Of a stretch of DNA of 64,000 bases, positions 11,799 through 40,094 are shown one piece after another (position 1 is the stretch's first letter; every line of letters starts with the position of its first letter). This stretch comes from Cobetia sp. L2A1 (GTDB taxonomy: Bacteria; Pseudomonadota; Gammaproteobacteria; Pseudomonadales; Halomonadaceae), in the NCBI RefSeq assembly GCF_009796845.1, contig NZ_CP047025.1, positions 682,001 to 746,000 on the forward strand, in the 5' to 3' direction. A program made the translations under genes and the position numbers. Below the pieces are notes generated by a model. That model did not search any database. It was not told where the DNA came from and saw only the letters and a program-made list of their open reading frames with translations.

Positions 11799-11836
11799 AA
11801 TAGCCCCCACCCAGTAGATGACTGGGCGAGGGCTAT
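11799..11836. terminator. Hairpin between convergent genes
   Basis: An imperfect stem pairs AATAGCCC...CCCAGT with ACTGGG...GGGCTATT between the amidohydrolase gene and holA. It can end transcription from both sides. Confidence 0.7.
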
Positions 11837-11866
11837 TGGTGTGTCTAGAAAATGCTTCTTGGTATG

Positions 11867-12925
11867 TTACATCACCTTGTAGGCATGCGGCAGTTCTGCC
11901 AGCGGGCCACGGCCACCGGCTAGTGTCAGCGCCAGATCCACCATGCCATCCCATACCGGCAACGCCATGCCGCCCTTGATCGCCATATCAAGACGCTGAG
12001 CAAACAGCAGTAGCTTGTGCAGGCGCTTGTGAGGCAGTCGATTGACTGCCTGCTGATAGAAGGGCCGACGTTTATCGAAGATCATCGGCTTCTGTGCCTT
12101 GCAAGCGTGCTCGAAGCTTTGCCCTTGATCGAGATGCTGGCGGAGCGAGAGCAGGGTGCGCAGCTCACGCGTCAGCGCCCACAAGATGACAGGAGGCTCG
12201 ACCCCCTCGCCACGCAGGCCCAGCACGATACGTCCACTGCGCTCTATCTCACCTTTCAGGCAGGCATCGGCCAGTGTGAAGACATCGTAACGGGCATTGT
12301 CCTCGACGCCTTGTGCGATGGCATTGCCATCCAGTCGTGCGCCGGGCGGATGCAGCAGTGCCAGCTTCTGTAGCTCCTGGTCTGCTGCCAGCAGGTTGCC
12401 CTCGATGCGCTCAGCCAGCAGTCGTGACGCATCCTGATTTAGCTCAAGTCCGTGAAGGCGGGCGCGATCCCTGATCCAGAACCCCAATCGCGAATGATCG
12501 ACGGGCCACACGGTAACGAAGACACCGACCTTTTCCAGACTCTTGAACCACGCCGTCTGCTGAACCTTGCGATCGAGGCGGGCGGCGGAGATCAACAGGA
12601 TATCGCCGTTCTTCTCGATGCGTTCAGCGTAGGCCTTGAGCACCTTGCTGCCTTCCTGGCCAGCACTGTGACTACCAAGGCGCAGCTCAATCAGCTTGCG
12701 CGAGGCAAACAGTGACATGCTTGCGGCAGATTCCGTCAACCGCCCCCATTGAAAGCCATTTTCGACGTGTAGCACTTCGCGTTCTTCGACACCCGCTGCA
12801 CGCGCCGCTTTTCTGATCGCGTCGCAGCTCTCCTGATGAATGAGCGGCTCGTCACCGGCCACGATGTAGACGGGATAAAGACGCTTGCTGAGCTGCTCGT
12901 CCAGCTTGTCGGGATAGACCTTCAT
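11867..12925 (-). CDS. holA: DNA polymerase III subunit delta (HolA)
   Basis: Delta is the clamp-loader subunit that opens the beta sliding clamp. The 352-aa sequence starts MKVYPDKLDEQLSKRLYPVYIVAGDEPLIHQES, the conserved HolA beginning in which the GDEPL segment replaces a functional Walker motif. It continues through RKLIELRLGS, LAERIEGNLLAADQELQKLAL and FTLADACLKG, the usual landmarks. AAGGAC precedes ATG 12925. It follows lptE by 52 bases on the same strand, which matches the E. coli order leuS-lptE-holA. Confidence 0.94.
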   Translation of the reverse strand: MKVYPDKLDEQLSKRLYPVYIVAGDEPLIHQESCDAIRKAARAAGVEEREVLHVENGFQWGRLTESAASMSLFASRKLIELRLGSHSAGQEGSKVLKAYAERIEKNGDILLISAARLDRKVQQTAWFKSLEKVGVFVTVWPVDHSRLGFWIRDRARLHGLELNQDASRLLAERIEGNLLAADQELQKLALLHPPGARLDGNAIAQGVEDNARYDVFTLADACLKGEIERSGRIVLGLRGEGVEPPVILWALTRELRTLLSLRQHLDQGQSFEHACKAQKPMIFDKRRPFYQQAVNRLPHKRLHKLLLFAQRLDMAIKGGMALPVWDGMVDLALTLAGGRGPLAELPHAYKVM

Positions 12926-24204: not shown

Positions 24205-25554
24205 TCAATAGCGATAAGGAGAGCTGAGCTCGCCGCGCAGCGAGTTGGGATAGGCCTCGGTGATCTCGACATCCACCAGGTAGCCGATCAGCTCGGTCGG
24301 GTTGGCGGCGCGGAAGTTGACCACGCGATTGTTTTCGGTGCGCCCGGATAGCATGCCCGGATCGCGCGGCGAGAAGCCCGACACCAGAATGCGCTGAGTG
24401 GTACCCACCATCTTGCGGCCGATCTGCATCGATTGCTGATTGATGCGCTCCTGCAGAATCAGCAGGCGCTCCTTCTTGACGTCGTCAGGCGTGTCATCGT
24501 CGAGATTCGCCGCCGGTGTACCCGGGCGTGATGAGTAGATGAAGCTGAACGAGTGATCGAAGCCAATCTGGCCAATCAGGTCCATGGTGTCCGCAAAGTC
24601 CTGATCCGTCTCACCGGGGAAACCGATGATGAAATCAGATGAGAAGCTCATGTCCGGACGCAAGGCCCGAATGCGTTCGAGCTTGTCAATGTACATGTCA
24701 CGCTCATGGCCACGCTTCATCGCCGCCAGAATCCGGTTGGAGCCTGACTGCACCGGCAGGTGCAGGTGGCTGACCAGTTCCGGGATTTCGCCAAAGGCCT
24801 CGATCAACGAGTCCTTGAACTCCACCGGATGCGAGGTAGTGAAACGGATGCGATCAATGCCCTCGACCTGCGCTACACAACTGATCAACTCGGCGAGATC
24901 GATTTCCTCGCCCAGCAGATTGAGTCCCGCATAGGCATTGACGTTCTGGCCGAGCAGATTGATCTCACGCACGCCTTGATCGGCGAGGTGAATGACTTCG
25001 TCCATCACCTTCTCGAACGGGCGCGACACTTCTTCGCCACGGGTATACGGCACCACGCAGAAGGTGCAGTACTTGGAGCAGCCTTCCATCACTGAGACAA
25101 AGGCGCTGGCACCGTCACTGGTTGGGGCGGGGAGATTGTCGAACTTCTCGATCTCGGGGAAGGTCACGTCCACCACGGAAATCTGCTTGAGGCTCTCGCG
25201 GCGTGTGTCGAGCATCTTCGGTACGCGGTGCAGTGTCTGCGGGCCAAAAATCATGTCGACGTGCGGCGCGCGCTTACGCAGGTTGTCGCCTTCCTGGCTG
25301 GCCACGCAGCCGCCAACACCGATCACTAGCGCCGGATTCTTCTCCTTGAGCTTCTTCCAGCGCCCTAGCTGATGAAAGACCTTCTCCTGCGCCTTCTCGC
25401 GAATGGAGCAGGTATTGAGAAGGATGACGTCCGCTTCGGATTCGTCAGTGGTGACTTCCATCTGATGAGATTCGCCGAGCAGATCCGCCATGCGTGCGGA
25501 GTCATACTCGTTCATCTGGCAGCCGTGGGTCTTGATGAAGAGTTTCTTCGCCAT
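24205..25554 (-). CDS. miaB: tRNA-2-methylthio-N6-dimethylallyladenosine synthase (MiaB)
   Basis: MiaB is a radical-SAM methylthiotransferase that turns i6A37 into ms2i6A37 in tRNAs reading UNN codons. The 449-aa protein has the UPF0004 domain with Cys residues in [12 protein letters not shown] (Cys12), [13 protein letters not shown] (about 48) and [11 protein letters not shown] (about 82). The radical-SAM triad is CSKYCTFC at about 157, and a C-terminal TRAM domain follows ([23 protein letters not shown]). AAGG precedes ATG 25554; upstream frames are not conserved. It leads the block miaB-phoH-ybeY-corC-lnt. Confidence 0.96.
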
Positions 25555-26306
25555 TGCCTTGTGTGAACGCTCTGAGCTGCGCGCCGAACCTTCATACACT
25601 TGCGGCCTGCGACACATCGAGGTGACAGGAGGCGCGCAAGCAGTCAGGAGAAGGGGCACGACTTGTAATGAATGAGTCCCGAGACGTTGACGCTGATCGG
25701 GAGTCTGGGGCGCGGCATGTCGCCGAGGCCTGAAACAGGACGGCACAGTATAAGAGGCTGCTGGCCATGCGGCCAGTCTTGTCGACATGGCGCTTCAAAA
25801 GGTGAGCCATGGTGAGCGCTCCTGCCTGCCAATGGCTGTGGTATCCTCACGAGCAGCCTGGCTGAGGCTGCGTGTTTCTTCCTTGTTTTGTCCACGTCAT
25901 AAGTCGGCAATGGCGAGAACATGGAACTGTCAATGGCTTGATTTGTTAAGGTTTTCATGCCGGCAGCATGTAGGTCTTTGCTGGTTAAAAAATGAACAAT
26001 GTGTTGGCGGGGCAGGCATTTCGCCGTGCGTGGACCCTCTCTTCCAACGTTGTCCCAAGACTTATCCACAGAAAGTGTGGATGTCTGAAGACACTTAAAT
26101 TTTTAGTACGTCCAAGCGCTATAGTGATGCCAGGCAGGAAGCCTTGCATTACGCAACCTGGCAGACAACGCATGGGCAGGCAAGACGCGCTTTGGCGCGT
26201 CGCTTCGCGGTTGATTGTGTTCAACAAGTGCGCCCTGTGGACTCATCATTACCACCTTGCATGAACATGACAGCCATCGCCCTCAGACAGCCATGAAGAA
26301 CGTGAC
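25555..26306. other. Long intergenic region upstream of miaB
   Basis: About 750 bases separate the divergent miaB and SH3-protein genes. I found no convincing gene: the frames present lack ribosome-binding sites and protein-like composition. The right half is more AT-rich and holds a perfect DnaA-box match (TTATCCACA, 26062-26070) followed by a near-inverted copy. A short hairpin with a T run follows near 26075-26105. Promoters for both genes should be here. Confidence 0.5.
26062..26080. promoter_or_regulatory. DnaA-box-like sequence pair
   Basis: TTATCCACA at 26062-26070 equals the strongest E. coli DnaA box. A second, inverted 7-of-9 match (TGTGGATGT) starts a few bases on, so CCACA and TGTGG also form a small inverted repeat. 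One pair is too few for an origin; it could be DnaA titration or regulation, or chance. Confidence 0.3.
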
Positions 26307-34825: not shown

Positions 34826-35557
34826 ATGTCCGATACCACCGAAGATAGCCCCATGGCGGCTTCTCAGAACGCCCATGGACTCAGCCATCCTGCACTGAAG
34901 GGGATTGCGCTGATTGCTTTTGATCTCGACGGTACCTTGATCGACTCCGTGCCGGACCTTGCTCATGCCATCGATCTGATGCTTGAAGATGAAGGATTGT
35001 CGGCATTGGGTGAGGCACGCGTGCGTGACTTCGTCGGCAATGGCTCGCGCGTGCTGGTCGAGCGAGCGCTGGAGGCGCATGGACGGAAAATCGATGATAT
35101 CGACATGGTCGAACGCACACATCATGCCTTCCTGGCCCATTACGCAGCAGACCCCAGCAGTCGAACACGGCTGTATCCCGGCGTGCGTGAATGCCTGGAT
35201 GGCTTGTGCCGCGCGGGTGTGTCACTGGTGCTGATCACAAACAAGCCAGAAGCCTTCATTGAGCCTTTGCTAGCGCACTTCTCGCTGGCGGAGCATTTTG
35301 TGCTGGCACTGGGTGGTGACTCCCTGTCGACATGCAAGCCAGACCCTGCACCGCTTTTGTTCGCTGCTGAGCGTTTGGGCGTATCACCGAATCAGGCATT
35401 GATGGTAGGTGATTCTCGTCACGATATCGCAGCCGGCAAGGCAGCGGGCTTCCGCACGTTGGCCGTTCCTTATGGCTATAACCATGGTGATCCGATCTCT
35501 GCCAGCCAGCCGGATTATCTGGTTGAATCACTCGACGCGTTGGTGGCTGTCCACTGA
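34826..35557 (+). CDS. gph: Phosphoglycolate phosphatase
   Basis: This is a HAD-superfamily phosphatase that removes phosphate from 2-phosphoglycolate formed in DNA repair and oxygenation side reactions. The catalytic motif is AFDLDGTLIDSVPDL at about residue 31. Motif II lies in LVLITNKP, and the final motif is VGDSRHD, with the Lys in STCKPDP. Length is 243 aa, with an extra 25-residue N-terminus compared with many homologues. AGGAA precedes ATG 34826. trpE follows after 127 bases without a visible terminator, and gph-trpE linkage is common in pseudomonads and relatives. Confidence 0.93.
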   Translation: MSDTTEDSPMAASQNAHGLSHPALKGIALIAFDLDGTLIDSVPDLAHAIDLMLEDEGLSALGEARVRDFVGNGSRVLVERALEAHGRKIDDIDMVERTHHAFLAHYAADPSSRTRLYPGVRECLDGLCRAGVSLVLITNKPEAFIEPLLAHFSLAEHFVLALGGDSLSTCKPDPAPLLFAAERLGVSPNQALMVGDSRHDIAAGKAAGFRTLAVPYGYNHGDPISASQPDYLVESLDALVAVH

Positions 35558-35684
35558 TAGGTCACGCGGTACGCTATTGCCTCGTCAGAGCGCTGCTGCC
35601 ACTCGTCGGCAATGATAGACTTGCCTGAAAATACACGTCGGCCGCGTGCTGACAAAGCATCCCCCGTGCAAGGAACAGCAGGTC

Positions 35685-37175
35685 ATGATGACCCCACAAC
35701 GCTTCACTGAACTGGCCGCTGCCGGCTATAACCGCATCCCCGTCACTCGTGACGTGCTGGCGGATCTCGACACGCCGCTGTCGACCTATCTCAAGCTCGC
35801 CGACATGCCGTGGACGTTCTTGCTGGAGTCCGTGCAAGGGGGGGAGAAGTGGGGACGCTATTCCATCATTGGCCTGCCGTGTCGTGAACGTATCGAAGTG
35901 CGTGGTCAGGTTGTCTCGCACCTGGTCAATGGCGAACAGACCGGCATGACTGAGGTAGAAGATCCGCTGGACTGGATCGAGACATTCCAGACCCGTTTTC
36001 GTGTGCCTGTCATCGAAGGAGCACCGCGCTTCAATGGCGGCCTGGTCGGTTATTTCGGCTATGACACGGTGCGCTATATCGAGCCGAAGCTGCGCGGTGT
36101 CGTGAAGCCTGATCCTCTGGGCGTGCCGGATATCCTGTTGATGGTGGCGGATGAGTTGGTCGTCTTCGACAATCTCTCCGGACGCCTCACCCTGCTGACC
36201 CACGCTGACCCCGCGACTGACGATGCCTACGTGAATGCCTGTGGGCGTCTTGAACGTCTCGAGATCCAGCTGCGTAGTGCAACGCTGAATACGGTAAGTC
36301 CAGGAACGGGCGGCGAGCCGGTCAAGGAGACGGACTTCACCTCCGGTTTCACCGAGGAAGGCTTCAAGGGTGCCGTCGAGAAGATCAAGGAATACGTGCT
36401 GGCCGGTGACGTCATGCAGTGCGTGCCGTCCCAACGGATGTCGATTCCCTATCGCGCAGCGCCATTGGATCTGTATCGCGCGCTGCGTAGCTTGAATCCG
36501 TCGCCGTACATGTTCTTCTTCAATCTTGATGACCACCATGTCATCGGCTCGTCGCCGGAGATCCTCTCGCGTCTTGAAGACGGTGAAGTCGCTGTCCGTC
36601 CGATTGCGGGAACACGTGTGCGTGGCGCCACGGAAGAGGAAGATCTCGCGCTGGAAAAGGATCTGCTGTCGGACCCGAAGGAAGTCGCCGAACATCTGAT
36701 GCTGATCGATCTGGGGCGTAACGATGTTGGTCGCATCAGTCAGACCGGTACCGTCAAGGTGACAGACCAGATGGCGGTGGAGCGTTATTCCCACGTCATG
36801 CACATTGTCTCCAACGTCACCGGCAAGTTGAAGGAAGGCCTGGGGCCGATGGATGTGCTGCGAGCGACTTTCCCGGCGGGGACGCTTTCCGGCGCGCCGA
36901 AGATTCGCGCGATGGAAATCATCGATGAGCTGGAGCCGGTCAAGCGTGGCATCTACTCCGGTGCAGTCGGTTATCTGTCCTGGCACGGCAACATGGATAC
37001 CGCGATCGCGATTCGTACCGCAGTGCTCAAGGACAAGGTACTGCACGTACAGGCGGGCGCCGGCATCGTGGCTGATTCCGTGCCGCAGTCCGAGTGGGAT
37101 GAAACGCTCAACAAGGGCCGGGCATTGTTCCGCGCTGTCGCGATGGCCGAGCGTGGTCTGGATAATCTGGACTGA
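35685..37175 (+). CDS. trpE: Anthranilate synthase component I (TrpE)
   Basis: TrpE makes anthranilate from chorismate with ammonia supplied by TrpG, the first step of tryptophan synthesis. The 496-aa protein has the feedback-binding N-terminal part ([17 protein letters not shown]). It also has the chorismate-binding core with [42 protein letters not shown] and [19 protein letters not shown] start at the ATG at 35685; another ATG follows at once. There is no Trp-rich leader in front of trpE, in contrast to trpGDC. Confidence 0.96.
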
Positions 37176-37266
37176 AGTCATTCCTCGTAAGCTGATCGCA
37201 GGAGTGGGCATGTGATTGCCCTTCCTGCGATTGACACCCCTGTCAGCGCGAAGCACTATTGAGAAC

Positions 37267-37317
37267 ATGACAATACGCACCCCGAACGAACTCAGCCTGC
37301 AGTGGTGGCGCTCCTGA
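37267..37317 (+). CDS. trpL: trp leader peptide (16 aa, tandem Trp)
   Basis: A short frame reads [16 protein letters not shown] and then stops. It ends in two adjacent Trp codons, then Arg, Ser and stop, very like the E. coli leader ending in GWWRTS. It is followed at about 50 bases by an intrinsic terminator and alternative pairing segments (see the attenuator entry). Ribosome stalling at the TGG pair under low charged tRNA-Trp would control trpGDC. The peptide itself needs no other function. Confidence 0.85.
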
Positions 37318-37394
37318 CAAGGGGGCGGCTTTCGCATGTCTGAAGTTTGAGGACGTACGACCACGAAGATGCCGCCGACCAGGGCGGCATTTTT
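37303..37394 (+). promoter_or_regulatory. Tryptophan attenuator of trpGDC
   Basis: Segment 1 holds the Trp codons and GCTCC (37310-37314). Segment 2 is GGGGGCGGC (37321-37329). Segment 3 is ATGCCGCC (37369-37376). Segment 4 is GGCGGCAT followed by five T (37383-37394). Segment 1 can pair with 2, and 3 with 4 (terminator), while 2 can pair with 3 (antiterminator). Segments 2 and 4 compete for the same GCCGCC. Attenuation of trpE and trpGDC is established in Pseudomonas putida; the assignment here rests on the visible sequence. Confidence 0.85.
37369..37394 (+). terminator. Attenuator terminator before trpGDC
   Basis: The 8-bp stem ATGCCGCC/GGCGGCAT with a 6-base loop is followed by TTTTT. It lies between the leader peptide and trpG. 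Confidence 0.88.
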
Positions 37395-37483
37395 GTTACT
37401 GGACGGCAGGCGCGAATCACAGGAGTGCAGGCAGTCAGGTGTTCATTTACCTTCTGACTTGTTCCCGACAATGGACACGAACC

Positions 37484-38119
37484 ATGCAAGCATTTACTGC
37501 TCAGGATGCCAGCACCCCACGCGTGCTGATGATCGATAATTTCGATAGTTTCACCTACAACATCGTCCAGTATCTGAGTGAGCTGGGGGCTGAGGTGCTG
37601 ACGGTGCGCAACGACGCGCTGACGCTTGACGATATCGAGACGCTCGCACCGACGCATCTTGTGCTGGGCCCCGGGCCGTGTACGCCCAATGAAGCCGGCA
37701 TCACGATGGACGTCATTCGCCACTTTGCTGGCAAGCTACCGATCCTGGGTGTCTGCCTTGGCCATCAGGCCATCGGTCAGGTTTATGGTGGCAAGGTGGT
37801 GCGTGCGCCGAAGGTCATGCACGGCAAGACCTCTGCCGTGCGTCATAACAATAGTGGTGTCTTCGCTGCACTTTCTGAGCCGCTGGAAGTGACTCGCTAT
37901 CATTCACTGGTTGTGGATCGTGACAGCTTGCCGGAAGTACTGGAAGTCACCAGCTGGACGGATGATGACGATGTGACACCGCAGCTGATCATGGGTCTGC
38001 GTCATCGCGAGCTTGATGTCGAAGGTGTCCAATTCCACCCTGAGTCAATTCTCACTTTGCAGGGTCATGAGCTTTTGGCTAACTATCTAAAGCGCGGCGT
38101 GGGTGTTAAGCACGCTTGA
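37484..38119 (+). CDS. trpG: Anthranilate synthase component II (TrpG)
   Basis: This glutamine amidotransferase subunit (211 aa) feeds ammonia to TrpE; homologues often also serve p-aminobenzoate synthesis. The class I triad is visible: Cys in [13 protein letters not shown], and His and Glu in [13 protein letters not shown]. The N-terminus [18 protein letters not shown] and the oxyanion region [12 protein letters not shown] are standard. I start at ATG 37484 ([10 protein letters not shown]), though it lacks a strong ribosome-binding site. A GTG at 37439 or an ATG at 37529 could be used. Expression is governed by the attenuator just upstream. Confidence 0.93.
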
Positions 38120-38220
38120 TTCGTTGCTGTCATTGCAGAAGCTCGCTGGTCATTTTTATTGTCATGCGTCAGTGCTGACGGTTTGGCGTTGGCGGCATAG
38201 CGCTTATGGAGAGATTGAAC

Positions 38221-39267
38221 ATGCAGATGCGAGAGGCGATTGGCGCAGTGATGCGCCACCAACACCTGAGCTACGACGATACCCATGCGGTGATGATGGC
38301 CATCATGACGGGCGAGGCGACTCAGGCGCAGATAGGGGCGCTATTGATGGCATTGTCGATGAAGGGTGAGACGGTCGATGAGATAGCGGCTGCCGCGCAG
38401 GTGATGCGTGAGCTGATGACGCGCGTGACTGTGCGCGCCACCGATGCCGTGGATATCGTGGGTACCGGCGGTGATGGTGCCAATCTGTTCAATGTCTCCA
38501 CCGCGGCGAGTTTCGTGGTGGCAGCAGCGGGCGGTCATGTCGCCAAGCATGGCAATCGCAGTGTCTCTTCCTCTTCTGGCAGTGCAGACCTGCTCGAAGC
38601 CGCTGGTATCAATCTCGCGTTGAATGCAGTGCAGGTGGGGCGTTGCATCGATGATATCGGTGTCGGCTTCATGTTCGCACCGAATCACCATGCTGCGATG
38701 CGTCACGTCATTGGTCCACGGCGTGAGCTGGGTGTGCGTACGGTGTTCAACATTCTTGGCCCGTTGACCAATCCTGCGGGGGCTACCCGTCAGGTGCTCG
38801 GCGTATATGACGCCGCACTGGTGCCGCTGATGGCTGAAGCGCTCAAGCGTCTCGGGGCCGAGCACGCGTTGGTGGTACACAGCGATGATGGGTTGGATGA
38901 GATTTCGCTGGCCGCACCGACACTGGTCAATGAGCTCAAGGATGGTGAGATCATCGAGTATCGCATCGCGCCGGAAGACTTCGGGATCGCGCGTCAGTCA
39001 CTTGGTTCGCTGGCCGTGCACACCTCTGCTGAGAGCCTTACGCTGGTTCAGCAGGCGCTCAAGGGTGTGGAGGGGCCTGCCAGTGACATCGTGGCACTCA
39101 ATGCGGGTGCGGCGCTGTATGTCGCCGGTATCGCCGACAGTTTGAAGGAAGGCGTCAATATTGCCGAGGACGTGCAGGCCAGCAAGCTGCCGTTTGAAAA
39201 GATGAAGGAGTTGGCCGATTTCACGCGCGTGTTCGCCCAGGTCAATAGTGAAGGAGCTTCCCACTGA
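38221..39267 (+). CDS. trpD: Anthranilate phosphoribosyltransferase
   Basis: TrpD joins anthranilate to PRPP in the second step of tryptophan synthesis. The 348-aa protein has the PRPP motif [15 protein letters not shown], the [22 protein letters not shown] anthranilate/PRPP loop, and [26 protein letters not shown] eight bases before ATG 38221 makes this the start, not the ATG at 38206. It lies 101 bases after trpG, and its stop overlaps the trpC start by one base (TGATG). Confidence 0.96.
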
Positions 39268-40094
39268 TGAGTACCGATACGCTGACAAGTGCTAACGACA
39301 AGGCACTGCCGACTATCCTGGCCAAGATTCTTGCGCGCAAGGAAGAAGAGATTGCCGAGCGTAGCGCTGCCGTGGGGGAGGCGGACCTTCATGACTTGAT
39401 CGAAAAGCAGAGTGCGCCGCGCGGCTTCATTGAAGCACTGACGTCACGGATCGATCGTGGTGAGCCGGCGATCATCGCCGAGGTCAAGAAAGCCTCGCCA
39501 TCCAAGGGTGTGATTCGCGAAGACTTCATGCCGGCTGAGATTGCCGTCGCCTATGAGCGGGCAGGCGCGGCTTGTCTGTCCGTGCTCACCGATGCCGATT
39601 TCTTTCAGGGTCACGAAGACTTCATGATCGAGGCGCGCGACGCCGTTTCGATTCCGGTGATCCGCAAGGACTTCATCATTCATCCGTATCAGGTGCTTGA
39701 GGCACGTGCCATTGGCGCCGATTGCATCCTGTTGATCGTTGCAGCATTGGACGATGCCACCTTGGGAGCGCTATACGCACAGGCGCGTGAGCTGGGAATG
39801 GATGTGCTGGTCGAAGTGCATGATGTGGATGAGCTAGCCCACGCACTGGCGCTGGGTATCGAATTGGTCGGCATCAACAACCGTGATTTGCGTACTTTCG
39901 AGACATCGCTGGATACCACGCTTGATCTGCTGGCGAACATGCCGGACGATGTGCGCGTCGTGACCGAGTCTGGTATTCATACCCGTGATGATGTCGCGAA
40001 GATGCGTGCTCGCGGGGTGCATGGGTTTCTGGTCGGCGAGGCTTGCATGCGCTTTGATGATCCGGGGATGGGGCTGAAGCAGTTGTTCTTCTGA
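39267..40094 (+). CDS. trpC: Indole-3-glycerol phosphate synthase
   Basis: This monofunctional TIM-barrel enzyme (275 aa) cyclises the phosphoribosyl-anthranilate product to indole-3-glycerol phosphate. Landmarks are [36 protein letters not shown] (catalytic Lys), [25 protein letters not shown] and VTESGI. It is not fused to trpF. The ATG overlaps the trpD stop, and a strong terminator ends the trpGDC operon after it. Confidence 0.96.

Follow-up and report, generated by a model that had tools for sequence, protein, structure and literature searches.

Why would a tryptophan attenuator precede trpGDC in Cobetia sp. L2A1 (Halomonadaceae) when none is seen before trpE, which encodes the other anthranilate synthase subunit? 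We addressed this question in a 64,000-nucleotide stretch of contig NZ_CP047025.1 (positions 682,001 to 746,000; hereafter the window, to which all coordinates refer). The element before trpGDC is very probably a genuine ribosome-mediated tryptophan transcription attenuator with a promoter of its own in the trpE-trpG gap. Its parts, geometry, conservation and promoter spacing were computed, as was the lack of a TrpR match, and from these we infer the transcription start, ribosome positions, termination and tryptophan response.

Layout of the locus

An initial annotation had placed the element in a split operon. This does not hold, as trpE ends at 37175, the leader begins 91 nt later, and trpE and trpGDC are adjacent. 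The features of the locus are as follows.

35691..37175, plus strand: trpE, anthranilate synthase component I (TIGR00564, 567 bits, cut-off 517.7), with no Trp leader found by upstream scans
37194..37232, plus strand: strong hairpin after trpE, without a T-run (-26.8 kcal/mol)
37231..37236, plus strand: predicted -35 box TTGACA, from family promoter spacing
37254..37259, plus strand: predicted -10 box CACTAT, separated from the leader ATG by 7 nt, from family promoter spacing
37267..37317, plus strand: leader peptide frame, from codon reading; predicted leaderless, with transcription start at or next to 37267
37303..37314, plus strand: segment 1, containing both Trp codons; partner of segment 2 in the fold of the free leader
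37321..37329, plus strand: segment 2, GGGGGCGGC (alignment, pair counts, folding)
37369..37376, plus strand: segment 3, ATGCCGCC (alignment, pair counts, folding)
37382..37394, plus strand: segment 4 and T-run, forming the terminator with segment 3 (alignment, pair counts, folding, sequence reading)
37484..38119, plus strand: trpG, glutamine amidotransferase of anthranilate synthase (TIGR00566, 279.5 bits, cut-off 121; ATG start picked in this analysis)
38206..39267, plus strand: trpD (TIGR01245, 416 bits)
39267..40094, plus strand: trpC (NF001373, 382.4 bits)

Direct reading reproduced, to the base, the WWRS leader, pairing segments and terminator to 37394 that had been annotated. The frame has 16 codons and ends QWWRS-stop, with its ATG at 37267, Trp at codons 13 (37303) and 14 (37306), and the stop codon at 37315. 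Segment 4 is GGGCGGCA (37382-37389), followed by TTTTT at 37390-37394. The locus thus has a short frame, predicted to be translated, with clustered Trp codons; the tryptophan biosynthesis genes trpG, trpD and trpC lie 3' of the element, which counts in favour of an attenuator. The 2:3 antiterminator and the 3:4 terminator compete for segment 3, and the intrinsic terminator carries a T-run. The leader ends WWRS and not with the Trp-Arg-Trp of the Pseudomonas type.

Folding and the proposed switch

The RNA from 37260 to 37400 folds at -54 kcal/mol, compared with a mean of -41.6 for shuffled sequences (z -3.2; one of 200 dinucleotide shuffles was as good). Folding in both states, a check proposed with the initial annotation, gave the 2:3 and 3:4 structures in turn and supported the competition between them that it had described: the antiterminator reaches -19.4 kcal/mol in RNA 37321-37378, before segment 4 exists, and the terminator -31.3 kcal/mol in RNA 37330-37396. 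The terminator remains the favoured fold once segment 4 has been made, even if segment 2 is free (-32.2 versus -21.6 kcal/mol for the forced antiterminator), so the antiterminator must win by timing, as it does in known attenuators.

When charged tRNA-Trp is scarce, a ribosome would stall at codons 13-14 without its leading edge reaching segment 2; by the usual footprint, one whose A site holds codon 14 (37306) would extend to about 37320 and leave segment 2 (37321-37329) free. Segment 2 would then pair with segment 3, and transcription would continue into trpGDC. When tryptophan is plentiful, a ribosome at the stop codon (37315) would reach to about 37329 and cover segment 2, the 3:4 terminator would form, and the transcript would end near 37394.

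Chance occurrence and conservation among relatives

The bare combination of a WW mini-ORF and, no more than 140 nt after it, a hairpin with a T-run occurs twice in the window, against a shuffled mean of 0.43, and at least once in 21 of 60 shuffled windows. As it is this common by chance, the sequence of one locus is weak evidence, and it is conservation in relatives that makes the attenuator real and led us to reject a chance combination. The second case in the window is a mini-ORF reading MAWWIWR-stop on the minus strand (11926-11949), with a hairpin of -29.7 kcal/mol at 11799-11837; it falls within the end of another ORF, in a different frame, and is probably a chance frame beside that gene's terminator. 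A simple promoter and terminator scan of the window picked up neither the promoter nor the terminator of the trpGDC leader.

Relatives were taken from 80 named loci of one contig scan (L004-L019 being assigned to the family by title) and from 201 sampled family genomes, which supplied 100 regions; these regions were hand-chosen to cover genera among the matches listed and are not a random sample. An attenuator before trpGDC, with none comparable before trpE, was present in all six sampled genomes of the window's genus. Across the family, 57 of the 102 trpG upstream regions examined carry a leader of the trpGDC type, a count that includes L099 and L108, without a terminator by the criterion used, and L123, whose ATG is displaced from the promoter. 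Fifty-four family leaders share the same architecture, 49 with WW and five with a single Trp codon. In an alignment of 53 distinct leaders the stem cores vary little or not at all, while the peptide is variable in its first half; the tandem Trp codons, whose conservation had been named as a check, are nearly invariant.

The proposed comparison of compensatory changes was answered in part. Pairing is conserved, with 97.6% of cells paired across the alignment for the terminator and 93.8% for the antiterminator. Covariation is uninformative because the stems hardly vary and two-sided changes are too few (one pair and two cells for the terminator; one and one for the antiterminator, the latter no better than shuffles).

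It is highly improbable that the element is a plain terminator insulating trpGDC from trpE, its Trp codons being incidental. The ease with which shuffled windows yield a mini-ORF and hairpin at this composition would allow such an origin, but the Trp codons, segment 2 and the spacing between them are kept across genera, and the element remains with trpG where trpE sits elsewhere.

A covariance model of the attenuator gave a full-length match in 92 of the 201 family genomes and none in 109; the 92 genomes correspond to 93 rows that span positions 1-155 and score at least 51 bits, counted by match score alone and irrespective of the neighbouring gene, while the tally of 126 at E 0.01 takes in partial matches to the terminator. 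Among 293 sampled genomes of the order, three had a full-length match, all of them within the family, and one more genome had a partial match. No full-length match outside the family was obtained among the genomes sampled, both searches having been run with tightened filters, under which weak matches may be missed.

Additional leaders in front of other genes were considered and rejected: the extra match in genome G003 and that in G014 both stand before truncated starts of trpG. In these two loci (L184, G003:C11:584200-587200; L185, G014:C2:959600-964600) the trpG leader and the first codons of trpG are followed by a phage-type integrase (PF00589), and an intact trpG with another upstream region lies 45 and 51 kb further on, respectively. 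Islands seem to insert in the first codons of trpG, swapping its attenuator for another 5' region. We also observed GTGAGTA..GTGAGTA-type repeats between the terminator and trpG, and near integrase ends as well (for example, in L102, L111, L117, L184 and L185); these are possibly integrase arm sites or remnants thereof.

A predicted leaderless start

Attenuation is a textbook mechanism, and its leader frame is usually described with a ribosome-binding site of its own. In the family studied here, 53 of 54 leaders have a CANNAT -10 box 17-18 nt after the -35 box, with 6-7 nt between the end of the -10 box and the ATG. TTGACA (50 leaders) or TTGACG (one) is found 35-37 nt upstream of the ATG in 51 of 53, where the -35 box was the best match 20-60 nt upstream and, with several ATGs, the best match was taken, ties being settled by closeness to 36. 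The spacing also holds in 26 of the 28 leaders that have one possible ATG. L123 and L144 do not follow this spacing; in L144 the frame lies within trpE. As the aligned sequences had been selected for TTGAC and ATG, the invariance of these two in the alignment is no evidence. A Shine-Dalgarno-like 4-mer at -18 to -4 occurs in one of 54 leaders, compared with 38 of 92 trpE starts, which were estimated from an alignment. The fixed promoter spacing and the lack of a Shine-Dalgarno sequence together predict a leaderless frame: it is likely that the leader is translated as a leaderless mRNA transcribed from the A of the ATG or the adjoining base. The mechanism itself is already known, and the leaderless, trpG-only form would be a variant of it. 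The initial annotation had missed this promoter spacing, as well as the absence of TrpR and the different leader that precedes trpE in most relatives, both described below.

The same attenuator could instead lie within a transcript that comes mainly from trpE or from a promoter further upstream, with the leader internal and the promoter at 37231 minor. The proximity of trpE, which lies on the same strand 91 nt upstream with no intervening T-run terminator, would permit this, and the -10 box is weak, with three of six matches to the E. coli consensus. However, the spacing of -35 box, -10 box and ATG is fixed in the family even where trpE is elsewhere (for example, in L113, L119 and L121), 53 of 54 leaders have no Shine-Dalgarno-like site, and a strong hairpin stands 3' of trpE in the window's genus. 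We therefore regard a mainly upstream transcript as unlikely and favour a promoter in the trpE-trpG gap.

The hairpin at 37194..37232 is a possible 3' end structure of the trpE mRNA. It has a counterpart in all six genomes of the genus (-19.9 to -41.2 kcal/mol), with a sequence that differs between two subgroups. Against 20 simple shuffles each, the region after trpE is clearly above chance in stability in five of the six genus loci (L084 only slightly so), compared with one of eight other loci. That the hairpin is kept in the genus suggests that trpE and trpGDC, though adjacent, are probably separate transcripts.

Leaders before trpE

Upstream scans bore out the claim that no attenuator precedes trpE, in all six genomes sampled from the genus. 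The gph-trpE gap contains no Trp-rich frame lying within it. An ORF at 35484-35615, which starts inside gph, out of frame, and reads ..TRWW.., was rejected as a trpE leader and taken as incidental, as the scan found no terminator after it and the other five genus genomes have no WW counterpart. Without an attenuator here, trpE would have to be set otherwise, by its own promoter or by read-through from gph. A TGATAGACT stretch in the gap (35558-35690) is kept in the four genus genomes printed and is a possible extended -10 promoter for trpE.

Most relatives carry a leader of another kind at this position. WRW stands directly before the leader stop codon in 62 of the 92 family trpE upstream regions examined (L102 has further codons) and is absent there in all six genomes of the window's genus. 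These leaders read TGG CGA TGG (for example, in L089, L112, L153 and L180), the middle codon being CGA in 61 of 62. A TTGA..-17-TA...T promoter at the end of gph accompanies 61 of the 62 upstream regions with a WRW leader and four of the 30 without. Of 61 distinct WRW leaders, seven have a hairpin with a T-run, and in 53 the sequence following the stop codon contains more C than G. A consensus fold was sought and rejected, RNAalifold giving about -0.3 kcal/mol for the 61 sequences in a gappy alignment. Leaders of this kind would suit a Rho-dependent mechanism, the involvement of Rho being a guess.

Both upstream regions were examined in 87 family loci: 43 have both leaders, 18 only that of trpE, 12 only that of trpG, and 14 neither. 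The trpG-only state is thus not unique to the window's genus, which accounts for six of the 12. Where a trpE leader is present and the locus includes both genes, the trpG leader is missing from all 18 loci whose trpE-trpG gap is at most 141 nt and present in all 35 whose gap is at least 209 nt. Neither leader occurs in another two loci, whose gaps are 58 and 68 nt; up to 141 nt, then, the trpG leader is absent in 20 of 20 loci. Against a simple gap rule, however, stand 10 loci in which both leaders are missing although the gap measures 165 to 5963 nt. The gap in the window is 318 nt by the measure used across loci.

TrpR and MiaB

We found no TrpR match in the genome of the window, and E. coli and B. 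subtilis controls were detected. TrpR exceeded its cut-off in 39 of the 201 family genomes, none of which has the full-length leader. These are the 40 genomes whose best TrpE match is weaker than 1e-100, minus G076, a fragmented assembly. A direct swap of TrpR for attenuation was not supported, as genomes of genus g10 with native TrpE and without TrpR are also without both leaders. In L195, L200 and L207-L212 (genus g10 and two g5 genomes) native TrpE is absent and a distant TrpE is present, followed by a trpG-like gene in seven of the eight loci read; the eighth stretch ends too soon. The gene order in L208 is TrpR, TrpE, TrpG-like. Long open frames had suggested a TrpR-TrpE fusion, which we rejected because L208 and L210 have separate TrpR and TrpE ORFs and TrpE is its own 472-aa ORF in L207 and L209.

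The initial annotation had also connected MiaB with attenuation. The gene is real (24205-25788) but lies about 11 kb away, beside a PhoH-like ORF; the tie is unsupported, and the presence of miaB in the window is probably incidental.

Relation to known attenuators

At the gathering threshold, Rfam returned only tRNAs in the 64-kb window. The best match of the region is RF00513 (Trp_leader), which aligns over its whole length but, at 22.8 bits, falls short of the gathering score of 41. With this E. coli-type attenuator the element shares competing 2:3 and 3:4 hairpins, a T-run and tandem Trp codons close to the end of the peptide. Unlike that type, the element described here stands before trpGDC and not before a whole operon, is predicted to be leaderless, and occurs in a genome with no TrpR match.

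In Pseudomonas putida, attenuation of trpE and trpGDC was reported by Olekhnovich and Gussin (2001), according to a reference title in PMC8297930. For P. aeruginosa biofilms treated with azithromycin, a legend in that article describes premature 3' ends near a GTG uORF before trpGDC. A short Trp leader ahead of trpGDC is thus common to Pseudomonas and the window, but the Pseudomonas loci read have ..RWRWRA-type leaders, unlike the WWRS here. Among eight loci for which such trpE or trpG leaders were printed, one (L024) has a hairpin with a T-run by the criterion used.

Leaderless trp leaders are described in excerpts of articles on Sinorhizobium meliloti trpLE(G) (PMC7298713) and Streptomyces lividans trpL1-trpE (PMC8079986). 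Both share tandem Trp codons and an intrinsic terminator with the present element, and their transcripts open with the leader frame, as is predicted here. They belong to an alphaproteobacterium and an actinomycete, with leaders before trpE(G) or trpE, whereas the present leader precedes trpGDC in gammaproteobacteria and its start is predicted from sequence, not mapped.

By analogy with rnTrpL and peTrpL of S. meliloti, the terminated RNA or the peptide might additionally act in trans. The S. meliloti leaderless attenuator RNA does so according to the excerpt (PMC7298713), and the predicted product of the present leader resembles it in kind. The peptide differs between genera in its first half, however, and we think trans action improbable.

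The titles and abstract openings listed by searches of open-licence PMC papers announce neither a Trp attenuator of Halomonadaceae nor a leaderless gammaproteobacterial trp leader. Comparative attenuator studies, reportedly by Vitreschak and others in 2004 and by Merino, Jensen and Yanofsky in 2008, may already list these leaders.

Implications

These observations can be joined in a tentative reading, which we hold to be possible though doubtful, in which the attenuator senses tryptophan only on RNAs from its own promoter and two kinds of leader govern the two subunits family-wide. As the leader has no Shine-Dalgarno sequence, read-through RNAs from trpE would be untranslated there and would terminate at any tryptophan level. 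TrpG would be under a leaderless intrinsic attenuator and TrpE under a WRW leader, mostly without an intrinsic terminator and perhaps Rho-dependent; the window's genus would have dropped the WRW leader of TrpE. If this is true, the leaderless start turns the switch into a check on transcript identity.

The predicted leaderless form, with promoter spacing fixed across the family, offers a comparison set for the coupling of leaderless translation to attenuation. The family places the switch by subunit, before trpE only, trpG only, both or neither, tracking the trpE-trpG gap where a trpE leader is present. This placement makes it testable whether the small subunit TrpG suffices as a control point for tryptophan synthesis.
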